Shown here: piece by piece, positions 8,246 to 23,474 of the stretch
Position numbering within the stretch: the first letter of the stretch is position 1
Layout of the letters: each line of letters starts with the position of its first letter
Source: a virus
Virus record (IMG/VR): IMGVR_UViG_3300037264_002609
Span: 1 to 37,236 of that record
DNA: 37,236 nucleotides
Reading direction: 5' to 3' (one strand)
Notes under the pieces: model-generated
Told to the model about the DNA's origin: nothing
The model's input: only the letters and a program-made list of their open reading frames with translations
Database searches by the model: none
Translations under genes and position numbers: made by a program

Positions 8246-8264
8246 AAGGCAGTTGGAAAGAAAA

Positions 8265-9578
8265 CTACTCGCCAGCGAGGGCCTGGCGAGCAGCTTCCTT
8301 TGCCTCGTCAACAGTCCGAACACGCCCATCAAGCTGGAGTTCGAGCACCTGCTTGATGAGCGCACCAACACGCGGACCCTGGACAACACCCATCTCGGAC
8401 AGGTGCTTGCCAGTGAGCAGCGGCTTGGTGGGTCCGTTGTGGACGTCATGCCGCTGCGCGAAGTCGACGAGCCACTCATGCACCGAGTCGAGACTCATGA
8501 CAACGAGCGCAAGCTCCTCGACCGTCGCCGGACGCAGCCGACCAGCCAGACGACGGATGTCGCCCTCTCCAAGCGGCTTGCCTGTAAGCCATTCGGACCT
8601 GGTCACCGTGTCTGCTTCCTGCACGAGCGCGACCACCTTCGCGGCGACCTCCTTGACAGCGCCAAGCTGGTCAATAGCAACGCGCCTCACCGTCTCGGCG
8701 TTGCCGAGGTGGCGAAGGAGCATTGCAATCTGCACGGCTTCACGGGAAACAGGCGTGAGCCCCTTCTCCCGCTTGACGAGCAGATCCAGGTAATGCAGGG
8801 CATCCTGGAGGTGGTAAGACCCAAGCGCGTGAAGCTCTGGGTGCAGAGCCTCCAGTGCTCCGGTCTTGATGAGCACGTTCACGCCACGCGACGGCTCAAC
8901 GCCCTTCGTCAGGAGCTTCTTCCACTCGACGTGGACGCGCTCCTTCGGAAGATCCTTGAGTTCGTGCGTAGCCGCTCGCATGAGCGCGAGCGTCTCTTCG
9001 TGAACGGTCAGCAGGTGCCGTGCGGCGAATTGTGCTCCTCGAAGGATCCGAAGAGGATCCTCGGAGAAGGCGCGCTCGTCGACGGCACGCAGCAGCTTTG
9101 CATCCAGGTCGGCCACGCCGTTGTGCGGGTCGTAGATGTGCCCCGTTAGAGGGTCCATCGCGATGGCGTTGATCGTGAAGTCGCGACGGCGACCAGCGTC
9201 GGCGAGGGTCATCGTCGGGTCGGGAGAGGCGATGAAGCCCTTGTAGCCCTTGCCGGTCTTCTGCTCACGACGCGGGATCGAGACGTCGAACTCCTGGCCC
9301 TTGTAGCGGAGCTTCAGGACGCCGAACGACTTGCCGACCTTGTCCACCTTGCCGAGTTGTGCAAGGGTGGACTCCAGATGGTCCGGCTGAAGTCCGTAGA
9401 CCTCGATGTCTACGTCCTTCGGCGCCTTGTACATCAGCAGGTCGCGGACGCACCCGCCGACGAGGAACGCCTTGCCGCCGGCCTGATTGACCAGGCTGAC
9501 GACTTCGCTCGCCTCCTGGAGGTGGCCGTTGTAGGGCATCCTTCGGACAGGTTCGAGATCGCCTTCGGGACGCGTCAT
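8265..9578 (-). CDS. cca: CCA-adding enzyme / tRNA nucleotidyltransferase (class II)
   Basis: This enzyme would add or repair the CCA 3' end of tRNAs using CTP and ATP. Class II nucleotidyltransferase motifs are all visible: motif A FLVGGCVRDLL...KDVDIEVYG (residues 38-62, catalytic D55 and D57, third carboxylate D98 in EFDVSIPRRE), motif B RRDFTINAIA (131-140), motif C SEDPLRILRGAQFAAR (172-187) and an E-R pair in KERVHVEWKKLLT (212-224) fitting motif D. At 437 aa it has the usual length, and I see no degraded catalytic residue and no HD phosphohydrolase motif. A strong TTAGGAGGT ribosome site supports the ATG at 9578. Poly(A) polymerases share the fold, so CCA versus poly(A) specificity is inferred. 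No tRNA gene is visible in this window. Confidence 0.9.
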   Translation of the reverse strand: MTRPEGDLEPVRRMPYNGHLQEASEVVSLVNQAGGKAFLVGGCVRDLLMYKAPKDVDIEVYGLQPDHLESTLAQLGKVDKVGKSFGVLKLRYKGQEFDVSIPRREQKTGKGYKGFIASPDPTMTLADAGRRRDFTINAIAMDPLTGHIYDPHNGVADLDAKLLRAVDERAFSEDPLRILRGAQFAARHLLTVHEETLALMRAATHELKDLPKERVHVEWKKLLTKGVEPSRGVNVLIKTGALEALHPELHALGSYHLQDALHYLDLLVKREKGLTPVSREAVQIAMLLRHLGNAETVRRVAIDQLGAVKEVAAKVVALVQEADTVTRSEWLTGKPLGEGDIRRLAGRLRPATVEELALVVMSLDSVHEWLVDFAQRHDVHNGPTKPLLTGKHLSEMGVVQGPRVGALIKQVLELQLDGRVRTVDEAKEAARQALAGE

Positions 9579-9637
9579 GCTGACCTCCTAAGAGGTTGAC
9601 CGTTCCAACCCGAAGTCCTGTTGCTGGGATTGCAGAA

Positions 9638-10132
9638 TCAGGCCGTCTCGCGGAACGAGGAGTGATAGGACTCCTGCTTGACCGCTGCGGCGTTGGCGAG
9701 TTCGTCCGCGCGCTCGTTCAGTGGGATCCCAGCATGGCCCTTGACCCAAACCCATGTGACGTGGTGCTTTGCCTCTGCTCTTGCGAGGCGTTCCCAGAGA
9801 TCTCGGTTTTTGACCGTGCCCTGCTTCCAGCCGGTCCTGCGCCAGTTGATGATCCACTTCGTGATTCCGTCCACGACGTATTTCGAGTCGCTGTAAACCG
9901 TTACCGCGTGAGGTCCGGTCAACGACTCCAACGCTTGGATTGGGCCCATCAACTCCATGCGATTGTTCGTGGTGTGATCTTCGTGTCCTGCGATCTCCCT
10001 ACGCCATCCGTTCTGCCGGATCAGTGCGCCCCATCCGCCTGGTCCTGGATTCGTAGGAATGCAGGCCCCGTCTGTCCAGACCTCTACCGCCGGGCGATTG
10101 ATGTCTCTGGATGCCTTGTTCGGCTTTGTCAT
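9638..10132 (-). CDS. rnhA: Ribonuclease HI
   Basis: RNase HI cuts the RNA strand of RNA-DNA hybrids, for example replication primers. Counting from the ATG at 10132, the acidic active-site residues are all present: D21 (VWTDGAC), E60 (NRMELMGPIQAL), D82 (VYSDSKYVVDGI) and D143 (NERADELAN), plus the flexible-loop histidine H133 (WVKGHAG). The product is 164 aa, close to the E. coli enzyme. An upstream in-frame TTG at 10195 would add 21 residues not typical of the family, so I prefer the ATG, which has AGGAG about 13 bases upstream. It lies directly downstream of the hairpin-dense region and 59 bp upstream of the CCA-enzyme gene, so the two RNA-processing genes are probably co-transcribed. Confidence 0.93.
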   Translation of the reverse strand: MTKPNKASRDINRPAVEVWTDGACIPTNPGPGGWGALIRQNGWRREIAGHEDHTTNNRMELMGPIQALESLTGPHAVTVYSDSKYVVDGITKWIINWRRTGWKQGTVKNRDLWERLARAEAKHHVTWVWVKGHAGIPLNERADELANAAAVKQESYHSSFRETA

Positions 10133-10171
10133 GGATGGCGATGCTCTCCTGAGAGCCCAGATATACCTCGA

Positions 10172-10867
10172 CTCTGGTTGATCCAGAGGAGGCAATCTAT
10201 CTGTCGGGTCTGGGTGAAACCCAGTGACGGTGGAGAGATTAGGAATCCCGTAGTGGGTAGACCCTCCCTACTGCACCTACTCATAAGATCATAAGATCTA
10301 TGAACTTAGGTGTTCAGGCAGGGTAGGCTCTGTCTGGATTCGGCGGCGAGGCTGGCTGCTTCTAGTGGCCGTCCAGGTGTCATGCTGGGCAACGCTCGAA
10401 GCAACGAACCTAGGGTGGGTAGACCCACACATCGCTGCGTGGGTCATCTGCGTGCCGTATGGAGCCTCATGAGGCCCGTAGGCGCCTTGCGGCGCCCGGA
10501 GCAGACCCAGGTTGCCCTGGTGACAGGTAAGACTCGATATTGTCGAGTCACGTCGCTCGGCTTGGTATACGACGTGTCGAGCCGTGTCCGTGAGCTATGC
10601 GGAAAGACGACCTGACGTAGGGTAGCCCCTGCGGACGCCCGGCTACGAGCGTATCGCTCCGGTACTGCCCACAGGGCCTACGCCTGAGACTACCTGCCCC
10701 CTCCCTCCCTCATCGTTAGATGAGGAACACCAGGCGGGAGTCGCTTACGCGTTGATCGAGTTATGCCGCCTATTCAGACAGATATGACGGTCCACTGGAC
10801 GCGACACCATGAGCTATTCGCGATCACGAGATCACGAAGGAGCGTCTCCGCTCCATCAATCGCGGTG
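10172..10867 (-). ncRNA. Candidate large structured non-coding RNA (about 700 nt)
   Basis: Between the HNH gene and RNase HI lie about 735 bases without a convincing gene. The stretch is packed with hairpins, and tetraloop identity points to the minus strand: GGAGCG-GAGA-CGCTCC (10839-10854), CCAGG-GCAA-CCTGG (10507-10520) and GGCGCC-GCAA-GGCGCC (10481-10496) are GNRA loops only on that strand, and CCTCATC-TAAC-GATGAGG (10708-10725) has a UMAC loop. Further stems: GAGCG-ATA-CGCTC (10647-10659), GTAGCC/GGCTAC (10622-10646), a 7-bp stem with loop CAATA (10531-10549), GTGGG-TCTA-CCCAC (10415-10428), TGAAC/GTTCA (10301-10316), CTGGGT-TTC-ACCCAG (10210-10224) and CTCTGG/CCAGAG (10172-10188). A 12-mer, GGGTCTACCCAC, occurs twice (10253-10264, 10415-10426). 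I found no tRNA cloverleaf. Candidates are an ornate phage RNA of the GOLLD/ROOL kind, a ribozyme or intron remnant, or a new class. The ends are approximate. Confidence 0.5.
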
Positions 10868-11293
10868 TTACTGCCCAGCAGAACGCGTTGCCGTTGAAAC
10901 GGGATTTGGATCGCTGCGAAGCGACCGATACTCGCTGCACCAGGCCAGGAAACGTTCGCGGCCTTTCTTCCGTAGGCGCCGCGCTACGGTCCACAGATGC
11001 AGGTCCGCGTAGGTGCGGAGCGCGAAATGGACCGCGCTGTGGCACTCGGCGCAGAGTTCGATCAGGTCGTGAAGCTTCTCGCTCCACATCCTGTTGTAGC
11101 TCTTGTGGTGGATCTCAAGCGGAAGACCCCTCGCCTCACAGGCATAGCAGGCACGCTTGCACAGGCGGCTCGCACGGAACCTCCGCTTGAGGTCACGCCA
11201 ATGGTCGGACTGGAGATAGTCCCTATAGGAGATGCCGCGGTAGTTCAGAGACGTCGTAAGACGCCGCATTCCGTTTCCGCTCGGCCCGCCCAT
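10868..11293 (-). CDS. HNH endonuclease-like protein, 141 aa
   Basis: The HNH/zinc module is clear: C49-x2-C52, then LEIHHKSYNRMW (H62, H63), then LIELCAECHSAVH (C81, C84, H85, H89). The two CxxC pairs would bind structural zinc and the His residues form the active site of a DNA nicking or cutting nuclease. Upstream is a basic SDHWRDLKRRFRASRLCKRAC segment typical of this small phage HNH type; the C-terminal 45 residues are basic. I start at ATG 11293, with GGAGG 8 bases upstream; the longer ORF begins at a TTG without support. It ends next to the hairpin-rich region, which fits a homing endonuclease beside an RNA element, though small stand-alone phage HNH proteins may also act in packaging. 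Confidence 0.8.
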   Translation of the reverse strand: MGGPSGNGMRRLTTSLNYRGISYRDYLQSDHWRDLKRRFRASRLCKRACYACEARGLPLEIHHKSYNRMWSEKLHDLIELCAECHSAVHFALRTYADLHLWTVARRLRKKGRERFLAWCSEYRSLRSDPNPVSTATRSAGQ

Positions 11294-11488
11294 TGAGATG
11301 CCTCCGGTGCGAAGCAGTTCCCGCTCGACAGCGGTGACCGAGTCTATACCAGGCGTGCGACGATGCGAGCTTCTTCTCAAGCCGCGTCAACTGATGACGC
11401 CAGATGGACTTAGAGCGGACAGGGGTTATACCGGACGGCGCCCGCGGGCTAGATCCGGCCTGAGAGGAGGTCTGAGATCCCGTAAACG

Positions 11489-11522
11489 CCAAGAGGCGGT
11501 GGCTGTTGCCACCGCCTCTTGG
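11489..11522 (-). terminator. Strong hairpin terminator after the 58-aa gene
   Basis: A perfect 15-bp stem (11489-11503 with 11508-11522) closes a 4-base loop, AACA on the minus strand. It starts 20 bases after the stop codon of the 58-aa gene. Only CGTTTACG follows on the minus strand, so the T-run is weak, but stem length and position make this the end of the transcript from the genes upstream. The 195 bases between it and the HNH start (11294-11488) show no gene I can support. Confidence 0.7.
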
Positions 11523-11542
11523 TTGAAGGGCTGCGCCGGGCT

Positions 11543-11719
11543 TCAGTAGCCCAGGCCCAACTCCTTGATCTTCTTGTCGACGAGGCACTTCGCGTAATAG
11601 GAGGCAATGCCAGCGCGCTTGCTGACCCGCTTGATCGCCTCGATCGGCTTCCTCGAAACAAGAAGACCGACCTCGTCCTCGGTCAGGAGGACGCTCTTCC
11701 AGCCTACTGAATCACTCAC
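11543..11719 (-). CDS. Small protein, 58 aa, hypothetical
   Basis: A GTG at 11719, 6 bases after a strong AAGGAAGG ribosome site, opens a 58-codon frame reading (M)SDSVGWKSVLLTEDEVGLL... and ending ...DKKIKELGLGY. The ATG-free start and small size make it easy to miss. The product is a soluble, helical, slightly basic protein without membrane segment or zinc motif. It follows the 240-aa gene after 33 bp and is followed by a strong terminator, so it is the last gene of that transcript. No family is recognised. Confidence 0.65.
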   Translation of the reverse strand: MSDSVGWKSVLLTEDEVGLLVSRKPIEAIKRVSKRAGIASYYAKCLVDKKIKELGLGY

Positions 11720-11752
11720 GCAGCACCTTCCTTTGGGTCACACGGACCCGAC

Positions 11753-12475
11753 CTACACGATCGCCTTGGCGATCTCCACGGTCTTGGGATCGAGGTAGCT
11801 GGCCAGACCAGGGTCGGACAGGAGTGCCCGCCTCAGATCCGCCAGCGCGGCCTTCATCGCGGCTTGCGACACCTTCTTGTTCCGGTCCTTGTTGCAGGCG
11901 TTCGCCTGGGCAGCCACCGGCGCACCCAGCTTCGTGAGCGTGTCCTTGACGAAGCAAGGGGAAACAGCAGGCGACCCGTCACGGATGGCCGCATTCGCCA
12001 CGCTCATCTTGCGAACAGCAGCGACAGCGTCGTCCAGGATCTTCCGGTCTTCGCAGGCGGCGAGCATCTTCACACCCTGCACGCCCACACTCTCCCAGAC
12101 GTCCTTCTCCGGCAGCTTCAGGAAGAGGTTGGCCCACGAGACATACTTCCTGGCGTTCTGAGCCTTGATCCGAAGGCCCTTCTCCAGCGCGATGGCCGCA
12201 CCGTCTGCGCCGAAGCCTGAGACCAGCGGCGCGATGGCCTTGGCGAAGTGGACTTCGATCCGCTGCTTCTCCAGGAGGAACTCACGGTAGACGCGTCGCA
12301 CGACCTCGAAGGAGGGGTGCGCGACGATGACCTCCCAGTTCGACTGCTGGGACGCAGCGCCCGATGTTGTCGTGGACTGCACGACCTGGCCTTTCACCTT
12401 CAGGCGGGACTTGCGCTTGCTCCTGATGTTGGAGACACGACCGCGCGACTTCTTGACACTACTCGTTGCTGACAC
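11753..12475 (-). CDS. Hypothetical protein, 240 aa, with basic N-terminus
   Basis: The GTG start at 12475 has a GAGGTG ribosome site 5 bases upstream and overlaps the end of the 266-aa repeat-protein gene by 17 bp, implying coupled translation. Residues 1-30 are very basic (KKSRGRVSNIRSKRKSRLK). Residues 46-240 look like a helical bundle rich in Ala, Lys and Val, with four Cys residues scattered (ACEDRK, SPCFVKD, ANACNKD) that do not form an obvious zinc site. I recognise no family. Position inside the HNH/repeat-protein island hints at a nucleic-acid-related role, but that rests only on context and the basic N-terminus. Confidence 0.75.
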   Translation of the reverse strand: MSATSSVKKSRGRVSNIRSKRKSRLKVKGQVVQSTTTSGAASQQSNWEVIVAHPSFEVVRRVYREFLLEKQRIEVHFAKAIAPLVSGFGADGAAIALEKGLRIKAQNARKYVSWANLFLKLPEKDVWESVGVQGVKMLAACEDRKILDDAVAAVRKMSVANAAIRDGSPAVSPCFVKDTLTKLGAPVAAQANACNKDRNKKVSQAAMKAALADLRRALLSDPGLASYLDPKTVEIAKAIV

Positions 12476-13259
12476 CGTTCACCTCACCGTTGATGTTGTC
12501 GAGTGCTTGAAGCAGGAGCACACGCTCCTTCTTCGAGAGAGAAGCAAAGAACTCCCGTTCCGACTGCTCCCGCGCCCGCGCCGTCGCCCGGCGACGGCAA
12601 GCCTCGTGCCTGGCTCGCCTGCGCTCGTGCTGCTCTGGAGTCTTCTCGGGACGCTGTCTACCGAAGACCGCGTCTTCCGCGGTCCATCCACGCTTTAGGC
12701 GGCACTTGATGGTGCCGCGTGGGACCCCTGTCAACTGTTCCCATTCAGCAAGTGTGCGCGTCTGACCGCGAGTCGTGATCTGCCACGCTGGGTTCTGCTC
12801 GGGAGGACACGTCAACGCCTTCTCGACAGACCATGTCAGAAGCCGCGTGCTGAGTGCATGGCCACTCATACCAAGACGCTTTGCCCAATCGCTGATGCAG
12901 AGAGTCTCACCGCGGAACGTGAGCATCTTCGCGCTGGCGTAAACAGTGGCGTGCGGTGCGAAGCCGAGCGCTTGAGCGACCGACCAGTTGAACCTGAGAC
13001 GTCCGTTGATGGTCGGCTCGGACAAACCGACCTCTCGTGACCACTCCGCAAGTGACTGCGTTCGATCCTCGTAGGTGATGAGGTGCGGCGCTCGTGTAGG
13101 AGTAGCCAGCGCCTTTTCAGCACTCCACCCACGCCACAATCGCGACCGCAGGCAGCGGAACGAGATACCGCGCTCTGCTGCCCACTTGTGCAATGGCTTT
13201 GTTACACCGTCGATGGTGAACGGCGAGGAGGGCATCAACTTAGGTTGAGGTCTTCGCAT
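12459..13259 (-). CDS. Protein of four tandem GWS-type HTH-like repeats, 266 aa
   Basis: The protein is four copies of a repeat of about 40 residues, at roughly 14-53, 61-100, 112-151 and 160-200. Each has a short beta strand (IDGVTKP, ITYEDRTQ, LTFRGET, ITTRGQT), a conserved L.EWA...G.S helix pair and an RL..GWS.E.AL ending (SRLWRGWSAEKAL, GRLRFNWSVAQAL, TRLLTWSVEKAL, CRLKRGWTAEDAV). This layout resembles DNA-recognition repeats attached to phage homing endonucleases, but no nuclease domain is present. After a basic linker comes a tail, EFFASLSKKERVLLLQALDN, shared with the gene just upstream. It is therefore probably a sequence-specific DNA-binding protein and paralogue of that gene. The ATG at 13259 has no strong ribosome site; it starts 6 bp after the upstream stop, so coupling is likely. 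Confidence 0.8.
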   Translation of the reverse strand: MRRPQPKLMPSSPFTIDGVTKPLHKWAAERGISFRCLRSRLWRGWSAEKALATPTRAPHLITYEDRTQSLAEWSREVGLSEPTINGRLRFNWSVAQALGFAPHATVYASAKMLTFRGETLCISDWAKRLGMSGHALSTRLLTWSVEKALTCPPEQNPAWQITTRGQTRTLAEWEQLTGVPRGTIKCRLKRGWTAEDAVFGRQRPEKTPEQHERRRARHEACRRRATARAREQSEREFFASLSKKERVLLLQALDNINGEVNGVSNE

Positions 13260-13265
13260 GCTGCA

Positions 13266-14009
13266 CTACATACCGCTTGCAATTGCGGTCATGTCGTCGA
13301 GTGTTTCGAGTAAGACCTTTTTTTGTTCAATGGAGAGCGAGGCCAAATACGCTTCGTGAGTTTGTTCTTTCTTCCGGCGGCGGTTCGCACGGTCCAGCGC
13401 CCGCACATGCTCGACGTAAGCAGGATCGGCCTTACGTCGCTCGCGGGCACGAATGATCTTCCGCACCTTCCTGTCGAGCGCTCGCTGGTCTCCTGAATGT
13501 GCAAGCCGATATGCCCGGTCGGCTGCCGCTTTCTTAGCGCGCCAGATCGGGTCTGTTTTGAGATTACGTCTAGCAGTGCGCTTTGCTGCGCAAGAAGGAC
13601 AGTAACAGCCACGCCTACTGTGGATTCCAGACGGTGCCCGAGGCCCAGGAAGCCTGCCCTTGAGCTTACGCTCGCGTCCCAGATTGGGCGTGGTCAGTGC
13701 CTCCTCCACTGTCCACTTCAAGCGCTTCAATCTACCGATCACAATGCATGTCGTGAGACGGAGGTGTGGTGACCGTGCGATCCATTCTGGAATGGTCAAA
13801 GTCAGACCATCCATCGTCAACTTCTGTGCATTCGAGCGCTCACACCGCCTAAGCGGTGGATCCTCGTAGCCGAGCGCCTGACCTATGGACCATCCCTGTT
13901 TCAGCCGCCATCGCAGCAAACAACGCGAGATACCACACTCTCTCGCCCATGCCGCTTTCGACTGCCTGCGCCCGTCGTATTCGATCACTCTCCTACATAC
14001 CCGGAGCAC
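13266..14009 (-). CDS. Paralogous GWS-repeat protein with Cys cluster, 247 aa
   Basis: Two repeats of the same kind as in the next gene are present at about residues 8-47 (IEYDGRRQSKAAWARECGIS...GWSIGQAL) and 63-107 (TMDGLTLTIPEW...KWTVEEAL). Then comes a Cys cluster (GCYCPSCAAKR, C135/C137/C140) that looks like half of a zinc finger, a long Arg/Lys/Ala helix with repeated DP..R units, and the tail AYLASLSIEQKKVLLETLDD, matching the tail of the downstream paralogue. The Cys cluster may be a relic of an HNH-type zinc module whose second half is lost. The start is a GTG at 14009 with GGAGG about 15 bases upstream; a stop just upstream excludes a longer form. A DNA-binding role is inferred. Confidence 0.78.
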   Translation of the reverse strand: MLRVCRRVIEYDGRRQSKAAWARECGISRCLLRWRLKQGWSIGQALGYEDPPLRRCERSNAQKLTMDGLTLTIPEWIARSPHLRLTTCIVIGRLKRLKWTVEEALTTPNLGRERKLKGRLPGPRAPSGIHSRRGCYCPSCAAKRTARRNLKTDPIWRAKKAAADRAYRLAHSGDQRALDRKVRKIIRARERRKADPAYVEHVRALDRANRRRKKEQTHEAYLASLSIEQKKVLLETLDDMTAIASGM

Positions 14010-14081
14010 AGAGCGGGCTGTCGACCTCCACTAGATGCCTCCACGACTGCCTAAGCCCAATGGCGCATACGTCCGGCTCCA

Positions 14082-15338
14082 TCAGGAAGTCGACACAAGT
14101 CCTGATGGGAGTTCTTCTCCAAGGTGAGTCCAGGTCCGTCCGGCCACGATGTCATCGACGTTACGCCTGGAGACCTTGAACTCACCGGCAAGGGCTGGTG
14201 AGGGCTCTCCCGCTGTTCCACGACGCCTGATCTCAAGCACCTGCTCTTCTGAGAGCTTCGACCGGCTATTACGGCGCCCGCGGGCTGCCGATCCATGCCT
14301 GACGCTCGGCTCAAAGCCTTCGACATGGACATGGACGCCTGACTGCCCCTTGCGGATCTTGGCCAGTGCAGCCGGGCCGACAGGAAGGCTGAACCGATCC
14401 ACGATCTCCTGGTCTGTCAGCGCAGGCTCGTCTCGGTAGGTCTCCTTGATCCGGCGAACCTGGTCATCGGTGAGCCGCTGATTGCCACGACTGGCGCAGT
14501 TGGCTGAGAGGCGCTCACGCGTCTTCCGGTTCTTCATGTTGTCGCTGCGCGTCTCCAGCTTCAGATGGAGTGGATTGACGCATGTCGCGATGGCGCATGT
14601 GTGGGCGACATCCATCCCACGCTGGAGAGCGATTCCTCCTGCTAGCAGCGCCATGCGATGCGCACTACGGACCTTGCCCTGGATCCTGAGATAGCCGTAG
14701 CCCTCGGCGTCGTGTCCACCGACCCATGTCTTGCACCCGTCGGCCTGGTCGATGGTGTTCGCCCAGAGCTTTGCCTTGTCCTCCTCAGTTAGGACAAGCT
14801 CGTAGTCGGTCGGGTAGATCTTGTCTGGCTTCTTCTGCTTCTTTGGTGTCTCTGTCCATGTGATGCCAGAGCCGATGTTGAACACAGATCGCTGCGTAAT
14901 CTCAAAGCGCTCAGCAATCTGGTCGCGCGGCTCTCCGGAGGCAAATGCGCTCCTGATCTGCATGACCTGGTCTGCTGTGAGCTTGGCGTTGCCGTTCTTC
15001 TCTCCTGAGTAGTGGCCACGTCCAGCCCATAGCTTTGACTTGTCCTCACCGTTTTCCTTAGCGGTGCCGATCTCTAGGTGAGAAGGATTGACACAGTTGC
15101 GGTGGTGGTCATTGCCAGGACAAAGATGACGGATCTGGGCGCCAGGCGGAATCACACCCCGCGCCACCTCGTATGCGACTCGGTGGGCCAACAACACGAC
15201 CTCGTCTACACGGAAGGCACCATAGCCCTTCTTATTGAGGGCACCTTGCCATAGCCAGCATCCACCCACTGGCTGGTCTGGTACCAGGCGATCCCACCGC
15301 CGCCAATCGTTCTGATCGAACTCAATACGCTCGTTCAC
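14082..15338 (-). CDS. Tandem HNH endonuclease (HNH-HTH-HNH-HTH-HTH), 418 aa
   Basis: Two complete HNH_3-type modules are visible. Module 1 (residues 27-97): CWLWQGALNKKGYGAF...AHRVAYEVARG...IRHLC...CVNPSHLEIGT, with H71, C73, C82, N84 and H87. Module 2 (202-268): CKTWVGGHDAEGYGYL...AHRMALL...AHTCAIATCVNPLHLKLET, with H246, C248, C253, N255 and H258. Each is followed by a helix-turn-helix of the form KL(T/S).(D/E)QV..IR, found near 119-161, 288-330 and 363-405. Most phage HNH_3 proteins have one module and are homing endonucleases cutting intronless alleles. The GTG start has a strong AAGGAGG 6 bases upstream and a candidate promoter. It sits right after the capsid gene terminator as first gene of the accessory island. 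Whether both active sites work is unknown. Confidence 0.88.
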   Translation of the reverse strand: MNERIEFDQNDWRRWDRLVPDQPVGGCWLWQGALNKKGYGAFRVDEVVLLAHRVAYEVARGVIPPGAQIRHLCPGNDHHRNCVNPSHLEIGTAKENGEDKSKLWAGRGHYSGEKNGNAKLTADQVMQIRSAFASGEPRDQIAERFEITQRSVFNIGSGITWTETPKKQKKPDKIYPTDYELVLTEEDKAKLWANTIDQADGCKTWVGGHDAEGYGYLRIQGKVRSAHRMALLAGGIALQRGMDVAHTCAIATCVNPLHLKLETRSDNMKNRKTRERLSANCASRGNQRLTDDQVRRIKETYRDEPALTDQEIVDRFSLPVGPAALAKIRKGQSGVHVHVEGFEPSVRHGSAARGRRNSRSKLSEEQVLEIRRRGTAGEPSPALAGEFKVSRRNVDDIVAGRTWTHLGEELPSGLVSTS

Positions 15339-15359
15339 GCTGGCCTCCTTACTGGAGGC

Positions 15360-15388
15360 AACCTAGCCGGCATGAAATCACGCGTCAA
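15360..15388 (-). promoter_or_regulatory. Candidate promoter for the HNH island
   Basis: On the minus strand TTGACG (15383-15388, 5 of 6 to the -35 consensus) and TAGGTT (15360-15365, 3 of 6 to -10) are 17 bases apart. The site lies between the capsid-gene terminator and the GTG of the HNH gene, where a new transcript would need to start. Confidence 0.4.
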
Positions 15389-15421
15389 GAGCAAATCACA
15401 ACCGCGAGTTGTCTAGAAACG

Positions 15422-15455
15422 AAGAAAGGCACCTGGTTGTCCAGGTGCCTTTCTT
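15422..15455 (-). terminator. Strong terminator after the major capsid gene
   Basis: A perfect 15-bp stem (15422-15436 with 15441-15455) closes a 4-base loop. The stem ends in TTTCTT and is followed by CGTTTC on the minus strand. It lies 25 bases after the capsid-protein stop and probably ends the head-gene transcript. The A/T-rich stem base means it could also work on the plus strand. Confidence 0.85.
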
Positions 15456-15480
15456 GTCTCTTCGATCCTAACCCGTTGGG

Positions 15481-21049: not shown

Positions 21050-21080
21050 CTACCGGCATACCTTCAAAGTATGCCGGTAG
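21050..21080 (-). terminator. Hairpin after the portal gene
   Basis: A perfect 12-bp stem (CTACCGGCATAC with GTATGCCGGTAG) and a 7-base loop begin 13 bases after the portal stop codon. It is followed by GAAAATCG rather than a T-run on the minus strand, so it may be an attenuator or RNA-stabilising hairpin rather than a full terminator. Confidence 0.55.
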
Positions 21081-21092
21081 CCATAGTTTGCC

Positions 21093-23474
21093 TTAGAAAG
21101 ACCCAGCGCGTGGCCTGGTTCCACCGGCAGAAGGCACTGAACTGATTCGACCGTTCGAGTTCTTCAGCGCTGCGTCCTTGAACTCACGCAGGAAGGAGGT
21201 CGTCTCGACCAGCTTGCGAGAGAAGTTCGCGTCGTTGTTCTGAAGGTCGCCGATCATGTCGATCAACTTCTGGTGATTCGCACGAGACTCGTTGTAGCGA
21301 CGCTCTTCGAGCCGGCGGCGGCGGTCGTAAGCACGCCACTCCTGTGCTGGTGCGCCGGGACGTGGTCGGACCTCTTCCAGACCGCTCCCTGGCACTTCTT
21401 CCAGACCAGAGCCAGGAACCTCTTCCAGACCGCTACCGGGGACTTCGTGGAGTGCCGGATGCCCGCCGCCGGGAACCTCTTCCAGACCCGGACTGGCGTC
21501 AGCGCCAGCAGCCGCGGGGTCTGGCTGTGCCGGCGGACGTCCTCCAGTGAACGGCGAGAAGGATGGGTCCATGCCCATCGCGTCGGCGATGTCTGCCTCG
21601 CGCTGCCGCTGCTTCTCGATCTCGCGGATCTCGGCGTCGGAGAGCTTGAAGATGTTCTCCAGAATCCAGCGCGACGAGACGTAGGGCTGGATGCGCGAAG
21701 CGAAGTCGGCGCGAGCGTTCTTGACCTCCATCGCTGCCAACTCGTAGATGTTGGACGGGACGGTCATCTTGACGTCCAACTCGACGGCCCATGGATTGGG
21801 GTGACCACGCGCAGCCAGGTCGGTGCGGATCAGGCGCTCGATTCCGTTGCGGAGTTCCTTCTGGATCTGAAGGCTTACTCTTGCCGCCCTGATATCCTCA
21901 TTTGACAAGATTGCACGGCCTTGGATTGGCGCATCCTGGCCCATATAGGCCCTGGGCACCATGAGCGCGCCATGCAGCTTCCTCTGGAAGTACTGAACAT
22001 CATCGACGTTCTGGTAGTCCGGACCTGACAAGACCTCGACTCTACTCAAGGCCCTGCCGTCCCTTACGGCAATGAAAAAATCTTCATCATTGCTCAAAGG
22101 GTTGTATCGCATGTCGAGGAAGTTGTTGTTTGGATTGACCATCTTCTTCTTCTTGAGGTCGCGCTTGGCGCGCTTCAAGAAGGTCTCGACACGGTTCGCT
22201 GGTACGTCGGTGACGTCGACGTAAAAGGCGTAGCGGGCAGGACTTCTAGTTAGCTTGTAGATCATGACCGCGTCTTCGAGCATGACGAGGCGCTTCCAGA
22301 TCCAGCGAGCGCCTTCGCCGACTGATACACCATAGGGCGAGCGGCGGGTCGTGGAGCGGAGCCTGAAATGACAGGTCTGCCAGTCCTCGAAGAGCGCGAC
22401 GTGCTTCGGAATCGTCAGCGCACCTGCCAACATGCGGCGGAGTTCGTCCTGGTTTGCCGTGAATCGACCTGTCACGTCCTGGACGTAGCCAATCAGGCTT
22501 CCGTTGAGCTTCTCGACGCGTCGCATGGTGGGCGCGGAGAGGTTGTTCAGACCAACGACGCCGTTCTCGGTGACCAGCACCTCTTCATAGTCATTTCCAT
22601 ACTGACACAAAGTGTAGGCGATCGAGAAGAGGTCGTCCTCCAGGCGGAGCCTACGCTTGATGAGCGTGTCGGCCATATCCACCACGGCCTGGTCTGGGCT
22701 CTCTACCCAACAGACGCGACCATTGTCCATGTTCGGCTGCGTCGCATCGTTGGCGAAGTAGTGGAAGGCGCTGTTGTGGCAGACGACCCCATTCACCAGC
22801 AGATTGTGGGTCGTAGTCGTGATGTCGTAGACGACCGGCTCGAAACACTCCGGAGTCGGATCAGCAGCCAGCCACACGCCTCCGGCGTTCTTGACCGTCA
22901 TGACGCTCTTTGAGTTCAGTTCGAACCCAGGCCGTGCGCCGACGATAAAGGCACCCTTGCGAAGCTCCTTGGCCTCGACGTAGCCAGGACGAGGTTCGAC
23001 GCAGTAGATCTTGTGCGTCGGTGTCACACGAAGAACTTCACCGTTGCTGAGTTGCAGGCGCAGGATTGGCGCGTTGCGCCCCGAGATGCGCGGGTGTTCG
23101 GCGAGGACAGGAACAAGCGTCTTGGTCTTGTCGTCGAAGCCGAGGATCTTGTAGGACTCCTGGCTTGACGCGAGTTCCTTGATCGGCATCGGCGTGATCA
23201 CGTTGTTCTCGCCGACGATGTAGACCTTCATGTCTCCGGTGAAGCAGCGAATGTCGGGGTAGTCGTTCATCGCCTCATAGTCGGCGTAGCGATCCATGAG
23301 GTTCTGAGAGACAGAGAGCATTCCACCGATGTCTTCGCGACCCCAGATCGCGTAGGTAGACGACGGCGCGTGCATGAGCGCATCAGCGCTTGGGCTTTCC
23401 GCCTGCTCTCGCGCGTCACGATCATCGCCAAAGACGCGACGAAGGGCGCCGAGCGCCCGGTCGGTGATGCTCAT
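21093..23474 (-). CDS. Portal protein (T4 gp20-like) interrupted by an in-frame mini-intein
   Basis: The extein parts join as MNDYPDIR/SAFHYFANDATQPN, the conserved N-terminal portal motif. Further gp20-like features are DLFSIAYTLCQYGNDYEEV, RMLAGALTIPKHVALFEDWQ, PARYAFYVDVTDVP, NPNNNFLDMRYNPLSNDEDFF and the QYFQRKLHGALMVPRAY stretch. The dodecameric portal would form the DNA channel and head-tail vertex. Of 793 aa, residues 77-234 are the intein, leaving a 635-aa portal after splicing, longer than T4 gp20 (524) because of a Pro/Gly-rich repeat tail. The ATG overlaps the stop of the Hint-like gene upstream (4 bp). If splicing failed, the N-terminal motif would be broken and the portal presumably inactive. 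Confidence 0.92.
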   Translation of the reverse strand: MSITDRALGALRRVFGDDRDAREQAESPSADALMHAPSSTYAIWGREDIGGMLSVSQNLMDRYADYEAMNDYPDIRCFTGDMKVYIVGENNVITPMPIKELASSQESYKILGFDDKTKTLVPVLAEHPRISGRNAPILRLQLSNGEVLRVTPTHKIYCVEPRPGYVEAKELRKGAFIVGARPGFELNSKSVMTVKNAGGVWLAADPTPECFEPVVYDITTTTHNLLVNGVVCHNSAFHYFANDATQPNMDNGRVCWVESPDQAVVDMADTLIKRRLRLEDDLFSIAYTLCQYGNDYEEVLVTENGVVGLNNLSAPTMRRVEKLNGSLIGYVQDVTGRFTANQDELRRMLAGALTIPKHVALFEDWQTCHFRLRSTTRRSPYGVSVGEGARWIWKRLVMLEDAVMIYKLTRSPARYAFYVDVTDVPANRVETFLKRAKRDLKKKKMVNPNNNFLDMRYNPLSNDEDFFIAVRDGRALSRVEVLSGPDYQNVDDVQYFQRKLHGALMVPRAYMGQDAPIQGRAILSNEDIRAARVSLQIQKELRNGIERLIRTDLAARGHPNPWAVELDVKMTVPSNIYELAAMEVKNARADFASRIQPYVSSRWILENIFKLSDAEIREIEKQRQREADIADAMGMDPSFSPFTGGRPPAQPDPAAAGADASPGLEEVPGGGHPALHEVPGSGLEEVPGSGLEEVPGSGLEEVRPRPGAPAQEWRAYDRRRRLEERRYNESRANHQKLIDMIGDLQNNDANFSRKLVETTSFLREFKDAALKNSNGRISSVPSAGGTRPRAGSF
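21370..21490. repeat. 24-base tandem repeats in the portal C-terminus (EVPGSGLE units)
   Basis: The coding strand repeats a unit of 24 bases four times, with one 33-base divergent unit (HPALHEVPGGG region). It codes EVPGSGLE copies at about residues 662-702 of the precursor. Identical copies coded by nearly identical DNA suggest recent expansion. This is a Pro/Gly/Glu linker between the portal core and a C-terminal helical region. Confidence 0.8.
22773..23246 (-). other. Mini-intein in the portal protein (158 aa, no endonuclease domain)
   Basis: The coding segment starts with Cys (block A, CFTGDMKVYIV) and ends with VVCHN before Ser (C-extein +1 nucleophile). Block B is present as RVTPTHKIYC with the TxxH motif, and block F as FEPVVYDITTTTHNLLVNG. 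All residues needed for splicing are visible: Cys1, the block B His, the block F Asp region, penultimate His, terminal Asn and Ser +1. The Hint fold is complete but there is no LAGLIDADG or HNH domain between blocks B and F, so homing, if any, needs another protein. The insertion point is inside the most conserved N-terminal portal motif, typical of intein sites. Confidence 0.9.

Follow-up and report, generated by a model that had tools for sequence, protein, structure and literature searches.

Between an HNH endonuclease gene and an RNase HI gene of an uncultured phage with T4-like markers, about 735 bases hold no gene; they probably encode a large structured RNA that belongs to none of the known families. 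We estimate a probability of about 0.55 that the predicted RNA, roughly 740 nt from the minus strand (10143..10879), represents a new class of structured non-coding RNAs and probably acts in trans. That the stretch is a genuine feature of the sequence is strongly supported, and it is very probably a structured RNA: as computed directly, it lacks coding capacity, folds strongly and in a strand-specific manner, and has neither an Rfam match nor a detectable relative. A sequence-only reading of this DNA had proposed that the minus strand encodes a large, ornate non-coding RNA, and that central claim is well supported by the folding statistics (the energy z-score, the difference between strands and the number of high-probability pairs), by the loop types and by the lack of a period-3 coding signal.

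Genomic setting

The analysed stretch of DNA, hereafter the window, is a linear IMG/VR virus record of 37,236 bases with a GC content of 61%, and is probably a fragment. Its T4-like markers are a gp23-type capsid, a T4-type portal and a prohead protease. The capsid is only about 33% identical to those of the nearest named phages and 77-92% identical to the gp23 of ten uncultured sister contigs. Nearly all genes in the window are coded on the minus strand.

The HNH endonuclease gene (10868..11293, minus strand) was recognised by PHROG HNH matches and placed by its start site and period-3 signal. Its likely start is the ATG at 11293, behind GGAGG; the alternative TTG at 11380 has neither such a site nor a coding signal, and the period-3 signal is absent over the last ~50 codons of the gene. 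Directly 3' of the candidate RNA is a complete RNase HI gene (9638..10132, minus strand; PF00075, E = 3.9e-41; above the NCBIfam ribonuclease HI cut-off), followed by a tRNA nucleotidyltransferase gene of the CCA-adding type (8265..9578, minus strand; Pfam PolyA_pol and PHROG tRNA nucleotidyltransferase). Positions 9579-15480 of the window, from gp23 to the tRNA nucleotidyltransferase, are an exchange hotspot in which the ORFs differ in each sister phage.

Non-coding status and extent

The period-3 signal (GC) of the region at about 10133-10880, taken over 10133-10867, is 0.1, compared to 9.1 for RNase HI, 6.1 for the HNH ORF as listed and 38.8 for a 240-aa gene. No convincing ORF was found within the gap, and a PHROG search with four of its longest reading frames yielded no significant match, in agreement with the earlier claim that the stretch is free of genes. 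The limits are slightly wider (10143-10879) than those given in that reading (10172-10867): the predicted 5' end is near 10879, in the last HNH codons, and the 3' end is near 10143.

Folding statistics and strand preference

Minimum free energies (MFE) were compared with those of 300 dinucleotide shuffles, and ensemble measures with those of 120 shuffles. The MFE of the minus strand is -345.7 kcal/mol, versus -274.0 ± 8.1 in the shuffles (z = -8.9), and the plus strand has a z-score of -5.2. The difference between strands, minus less plus, is -16.6 kcal/mol; the shuffles favour the plus strand (+11.3 ± 7.5), and 0 of 300 were as low. The predicted ensemble is well defined: 192 minus-strand pairs have a probability (P) above 0.9, versus 69 ± 32 in the shuffles (maximum 153), and the mean base-pair distance is 64, versus 185 ± 42 (minimum 91). 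Among twelve further stretches of this length in the window, mostly coding, the highest count was 164 pairs with P > 0.9. The number of long-range pairs, taken by itself, is not above that of the shuffles.

Loop types show the same strand specificity. The minus-strand fold contains four GNRA tetraloops (GAGA, GCAA, GCAA and GCGA) where 0.07 would be expected, as well as a UAAC loop. With four GNRA loops among nine tetraloop hairpins, the chance probability is about 1e-4 at 1/32 per loop. The strand-biased hairpins with special loops that had been described from the letters are thus real features of the computed fold; the three GNRA loops and the UAAC loop reappear, and GCGA is added to them.

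Because the shuffles do not model palindromic DNA, it is the strand-specific measures that carry the argument for an RNA. Palindrome-rich DNA that does not function as RNA, such as debris left by recombination in the gp23-nucleotidyltransferase hotspot, would fold well on both strands, and the plus-strand score is of this kind and counts against a trans-acting RNA; the variability of the site among the sister phages and the lack of relatives fit the same explanation. We nonetheless consider it decidedly unlikely, since the folding preference and the GNRA loops belong to one strand only, and since the helices form a single nested, well-defined fold rather than copies of one element.

Predicted secondary structure

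Most helices of the predicted minus-strand fold have P > 0.9. Domain 1 (10794..10879; helix probabilities 0.94-1.00) is closed by the helices GCUGGGC/GUCCAGU (10879-10873/10800-10794) and ACACCG/UGGUGU. It contains a 6-bp hairpin capped by GAGA and a 9-bp hairpin, and the HNH stop codon falls within its 5' strand. Domain 2 (10329..10782) is a closed multibranch structure of ~454 nt. Its outer closing helix has 8 bp, UCUGUCUG/CAGACAGA (10782-10775/10336-10329), and its inner closing helix has 6 bp, GGCGGC/GCCGCC (10770-10765/10347-10342), with probabilities of 0.95 and 1.00 for the closing helices. More than 400 nt separate the closing strands, and the inverted repeat that they form was also found independently. 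Within domain 2 the predicted fold has two sub-domains: R1 (10522..10698), with four arms, is closed by GGCAGGUAG/UUACCUGUC, and R2 (10349..10520) carries the GCAA, GCAA and GCGA hairpins and a three-way junction.

Domain 3 (10261..10328) is a long imperfect hairpin built of the helices CCCUGC/GUAGGG, CACCUA/UAGGUG, UUCAU/AUGAG and AGAUC/GAUCU; its main helices have probabilities of 0.85-0.97, and the outermost 4 bp have 0.44. Further 3', at 10158..10203, the helix CAGAUA/UAUCUG is predicted together with UGCCUC/GAGGUA and the hairpin CUCUGG-AUCAA-CCAGAG (P = 0.84-0.99). The last element is a small, weak hairpin, GCUCU-CAGG-AGAGC (10143..10156; P = 0.52), which covers part of AGGAG, the Shine-Dalgarno-like sequence of RNase HI. 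All of these elements are on the minus strand.

Loop-loop (kissing) pairing was no better than in shuffled loops and lends no support to the formation of homo-oligomers; the lack of an excess is a point against a trans-acting RNA of the kind that we favour. A 12-mer, GGGTCTACCCAC, had also been pointed out, and the repeat search confirmed two minus-strand copies 162 bases apart (10253..10264 and 10415..10426). It did not prove to be a useful motif: comparable 12-mer repeats occur in 2.2% of shuffles, the two copies are in different structural settings, the second being partly within the GCGA hairpin, and pattern scans returned only unrelated matches. We give little weight as evidence to either the repeat or the HNH neighbour.

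Known families and the HNH neighbour

Rfam searches at the gathering threshold and at E values up to 10 returned chance matches only. GOLLD, ROOL, group I and II introns and HEARO were included, so the named classes to which the sequence-only reading had thought the RNA might belong find no match even at the relaxed threshold. ARAGORN and Rfam gave no tRNA or tmRNA match. A group I or II intron is not supported either, there being no catalytic core detected with Rfam, a complete RNase HI gene downstream and an upstream ORF with its own stop.

The HNH gene raises the alternative that the RNA is the remnant of a ribozyme or intron on a mobile HNH element. That gene is directly upstream, its stop codon is inside the first helix, several more HNH genes lie within the same variable stretch of the window according to PHROG, and the sister phages appear to be rich in inteins. 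Against these observations, no group I, group II or small ribozyme was found in Rfam at E values up to 10, and no host gene is split, because RNase HI is complete. Relatives of the HNH protein in Streptomyces, Rhodobacteraceae, Pseudomonas and Mycobacterium phages are found, where annotated, among ordinary protein genes. We therefore regard a remnant of this kind as improbable. The same distribution of relatives, with the additional HNH genes in the variable stretch, indicates that the HNH neighbour is probably incidental to the RNA, and the suggestion that it accompanies an RNA element is correspondingly weak.

A likeness to HEARO and the omega RNA of IscB lies in the adjacency of an RNA to an HNH protein, whose HNH part weakly resembles that of IscB. 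However, the protein is ~141 aa long with only ~46 residues matching IscB, the RNA sits downstream of the HNH gene, and HEARO gave no match. The gene is not itself IscB (RuvC plus HNH): it has a short HNH only and scores 23.9 bits with the NCBIfam IscB model, against a cut-off of 175.

Search for relatives

Blastn against phage and plasmid records found nothing beyond a chance 27-nt match, and blastn against the whole records of the ten sister contigs and nine RNase HI contigs found chance matches of 11-32 nt only. In the sister phages, which were found via gp23, other ORFs occupy the interval between gp23 and the nucleotidyltransferase, and four sister records scanned whole contain no non-coding gap comparably long and stable. 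Protein scans of viral contigs with HNH and the nucleotidyltransferase identified no relatives, and a scan via a neighbouring conserved gene returned the known sister contigs only. DNA patterns made from the 12-mer repeat and the loops had only unrelated matches in IMG/VR and no match in GTDB genome contigs. Single-sequence covariance models of R1 and R2 recovered the window itself and chance matches. The lack of a homologue in the collections searched, and the absence of the RNA from the closest sister phages, weigh against the trans-acting reading. The pattern scans were exact-match searches that would miss diverged relatives, and absence from the searched collections is therefore not absence in nature.

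Comparison with large phage RNAs

GOLLD RNAs are large (often >800 nt), ornate RNAs of phages whose function is unknown, and two large ornate phage RNA classes, GOLLD and ROOL, form RNA-only cages (PMC12286853). As a yardstick we measured a 750-nt region around one GOLLD RNA from the record of an uncultured phage, G020 (L172 1501-1910; RF02032, E = 8.8e-88). This region has a z-score of -3.2, 107 pairs with P > 0.9 versus 57 ± 26 in shuffles, a base-pair distance of 117 and three GNRA loops versus 0.33 expected. The two RNAs thus share a kind of folding profile and GNRA content, both weaker in GOLLD; the orphan RNA exceeds the yardstick on all four measures, in a single comparison in which it is also the GC-richer of the two (59% versus 41%). 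It differs in having no match to RF02032, though the model works on another phage record. GOLLD is often near tRNA islands, whereas there is no tRNA gene in the window, which is probably a fragment; a tRNA array is present elsewhere in one sister phage.

The likeness to ROOL (RF03087, a model of 574 positions) lies in size, complex fold and a phage genome; the differences are that the orphan RNA has no RF03087 match and no tRNAs nearby in the window. A separate search for the ROOL family on other records was run without a positive control. As a kind, the predicted orphan RNA resembles GOLLD and ROOL in being large, strand-specific, elaborately folded and devoid of coding capacity.

An orphan of this size has precedent, because phage ICP1 makes a transcript of ~800 nt, of no named family, from a stretch without ORFs; it was shown by RNA-seq, lies beside the lysis cluster, and was likened by its authors to GOLLD and ROOL by length only (PMC7567579). 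The ICP1 transcript is set beside the orphan RNA here by description, not sequence: both are large, belong to phages and come from ORF-less stretches, and they differ in that the orphan RNA, which has RNase HI rather than a lysis cluster next to it, is a prediction from sequence.

Transcription and possible function

A perfect 15-bp hairpin upstream of the HNH gene (11489..11522, minus strand) is the probable terminator of an upstream unit, and where the nucleotidyltransferase gene ends, a long imperfect hairpin (8257..8301, minus strand) probably marks the end of the transcription unit. The hairpin search also found a perfect or near-perfect 15-bp terminator-like hairpin 3' of gp23 (15422-15455). 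If these hairpins are terminators, the RNA is inside one unit with the order HNH, RNA, RNase HI, tRNA nucleotidyltransferase. We recognised no promoter or terminator belonging to the RNA itself and no terminator between it and the RNase HI gene; the T4-type late promoter motif is absent from the window.

This arrangement suits the main rival explanation, a cis-acting leader. The RNA would then remain part of the mRNA and control how RNase HI and the nucleotidyltransferase are translated, or how their message is processed or kept stable; masking of the ribosome-binding site of RNase HI would be one such mechanism. The 3' end of the RNA and the RNase HI start are at most about 10 nt apart, part of AGGAG is paired in the final hairpin, and no terminator intervenes. 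However, 740 nt in several closed domains far exceeds what known leaders need, the masking hairpin is weak, and no known riboswitch or leader was matched. We judge a leader unlikely.

The preferred reading, a trans-acting RNA, draws on the minus-strand energy z-score, the lack of a period-3 signal, the well-defined ensemble, the strand difference, the excess of GNRA loops, folding measures stronger than those of the GOLLD yardstick, the closed multibranch domain, and a position on the strand of the neighbouring genes inside a unit bounded by terminator-like hairpins. The RNA would probably arise from a transcript shared with HNH, RNase HI and tRNA nucleotidyltransferase. The lack of a recognised promoter or terminator of its own counts against this reading and is the reason for suggesting release by processing; a start of its own would be another route. 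Once freed, it may act as a folded scaffold, complex or binding partner; it would resemble GOLLD and ROOL in this but form a class of its own. A more specific version, which we offer tentatively, is that the new class is unrelated to GOLLD and ROOL, is produced alongside RNase HI and tRNA nucleotidyltransferase, and forms an RNA machine or particle during infection. A replication primer processed by the adjoining RNase HI, like ColE1 RNA II, would be consistent with the size of the RNA and with that gene, but is very improbable: cumulative GC skew has no turning point at the locus and its minimum is near 20-25 kb.

The known large ornate phage RNA classes are few and their functions are open, and one more class, distinct in fold and gene neighbourhood, would enlarge this group. 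If the new class is real, its partners RNase HI and tRNA nucleotidyltransferase could hint at its function. Its orphan status in the collections searched suggests that discovery by homology can miss such RNAs, and fold statistics on single sequences might find others.

Several other features were observed in these and other phages. In this phage group the portal is encoded by a single open frame that in-frame insertions, most likely inteins, have made longer (L083, L088, L090 and L091); the portal of one sister phage (G002, L083 68-5941) is an open frame of 1957 aa with about four insertions. In the portal of the window (21093-23474), residues 92-234 resemble an intein with a score slightly below the Pfam cut-off, and a terminator-like 15-bp hairpin at 21050-21080 lies just outside the 3' end of the gene. 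A similar insertion of about 1 kb is present in the prohead protease genes of two sister contigs, L085 (591-3491) and L090 (6108-9005); the former was checked and is one open frame of 966 aa. On the 74 kb contig of another sister phage, a tmRNA gene occurs with a tRNA array of more than 20 genes (L103 3634-13234; G001, 63.6-73.2 kb). An unrelated phage that has an RNase HI gene contains a strongly folded stretch with no Rfam match (L024 6901-7350), with z-scores of about -9 to -10 over 300 nt.
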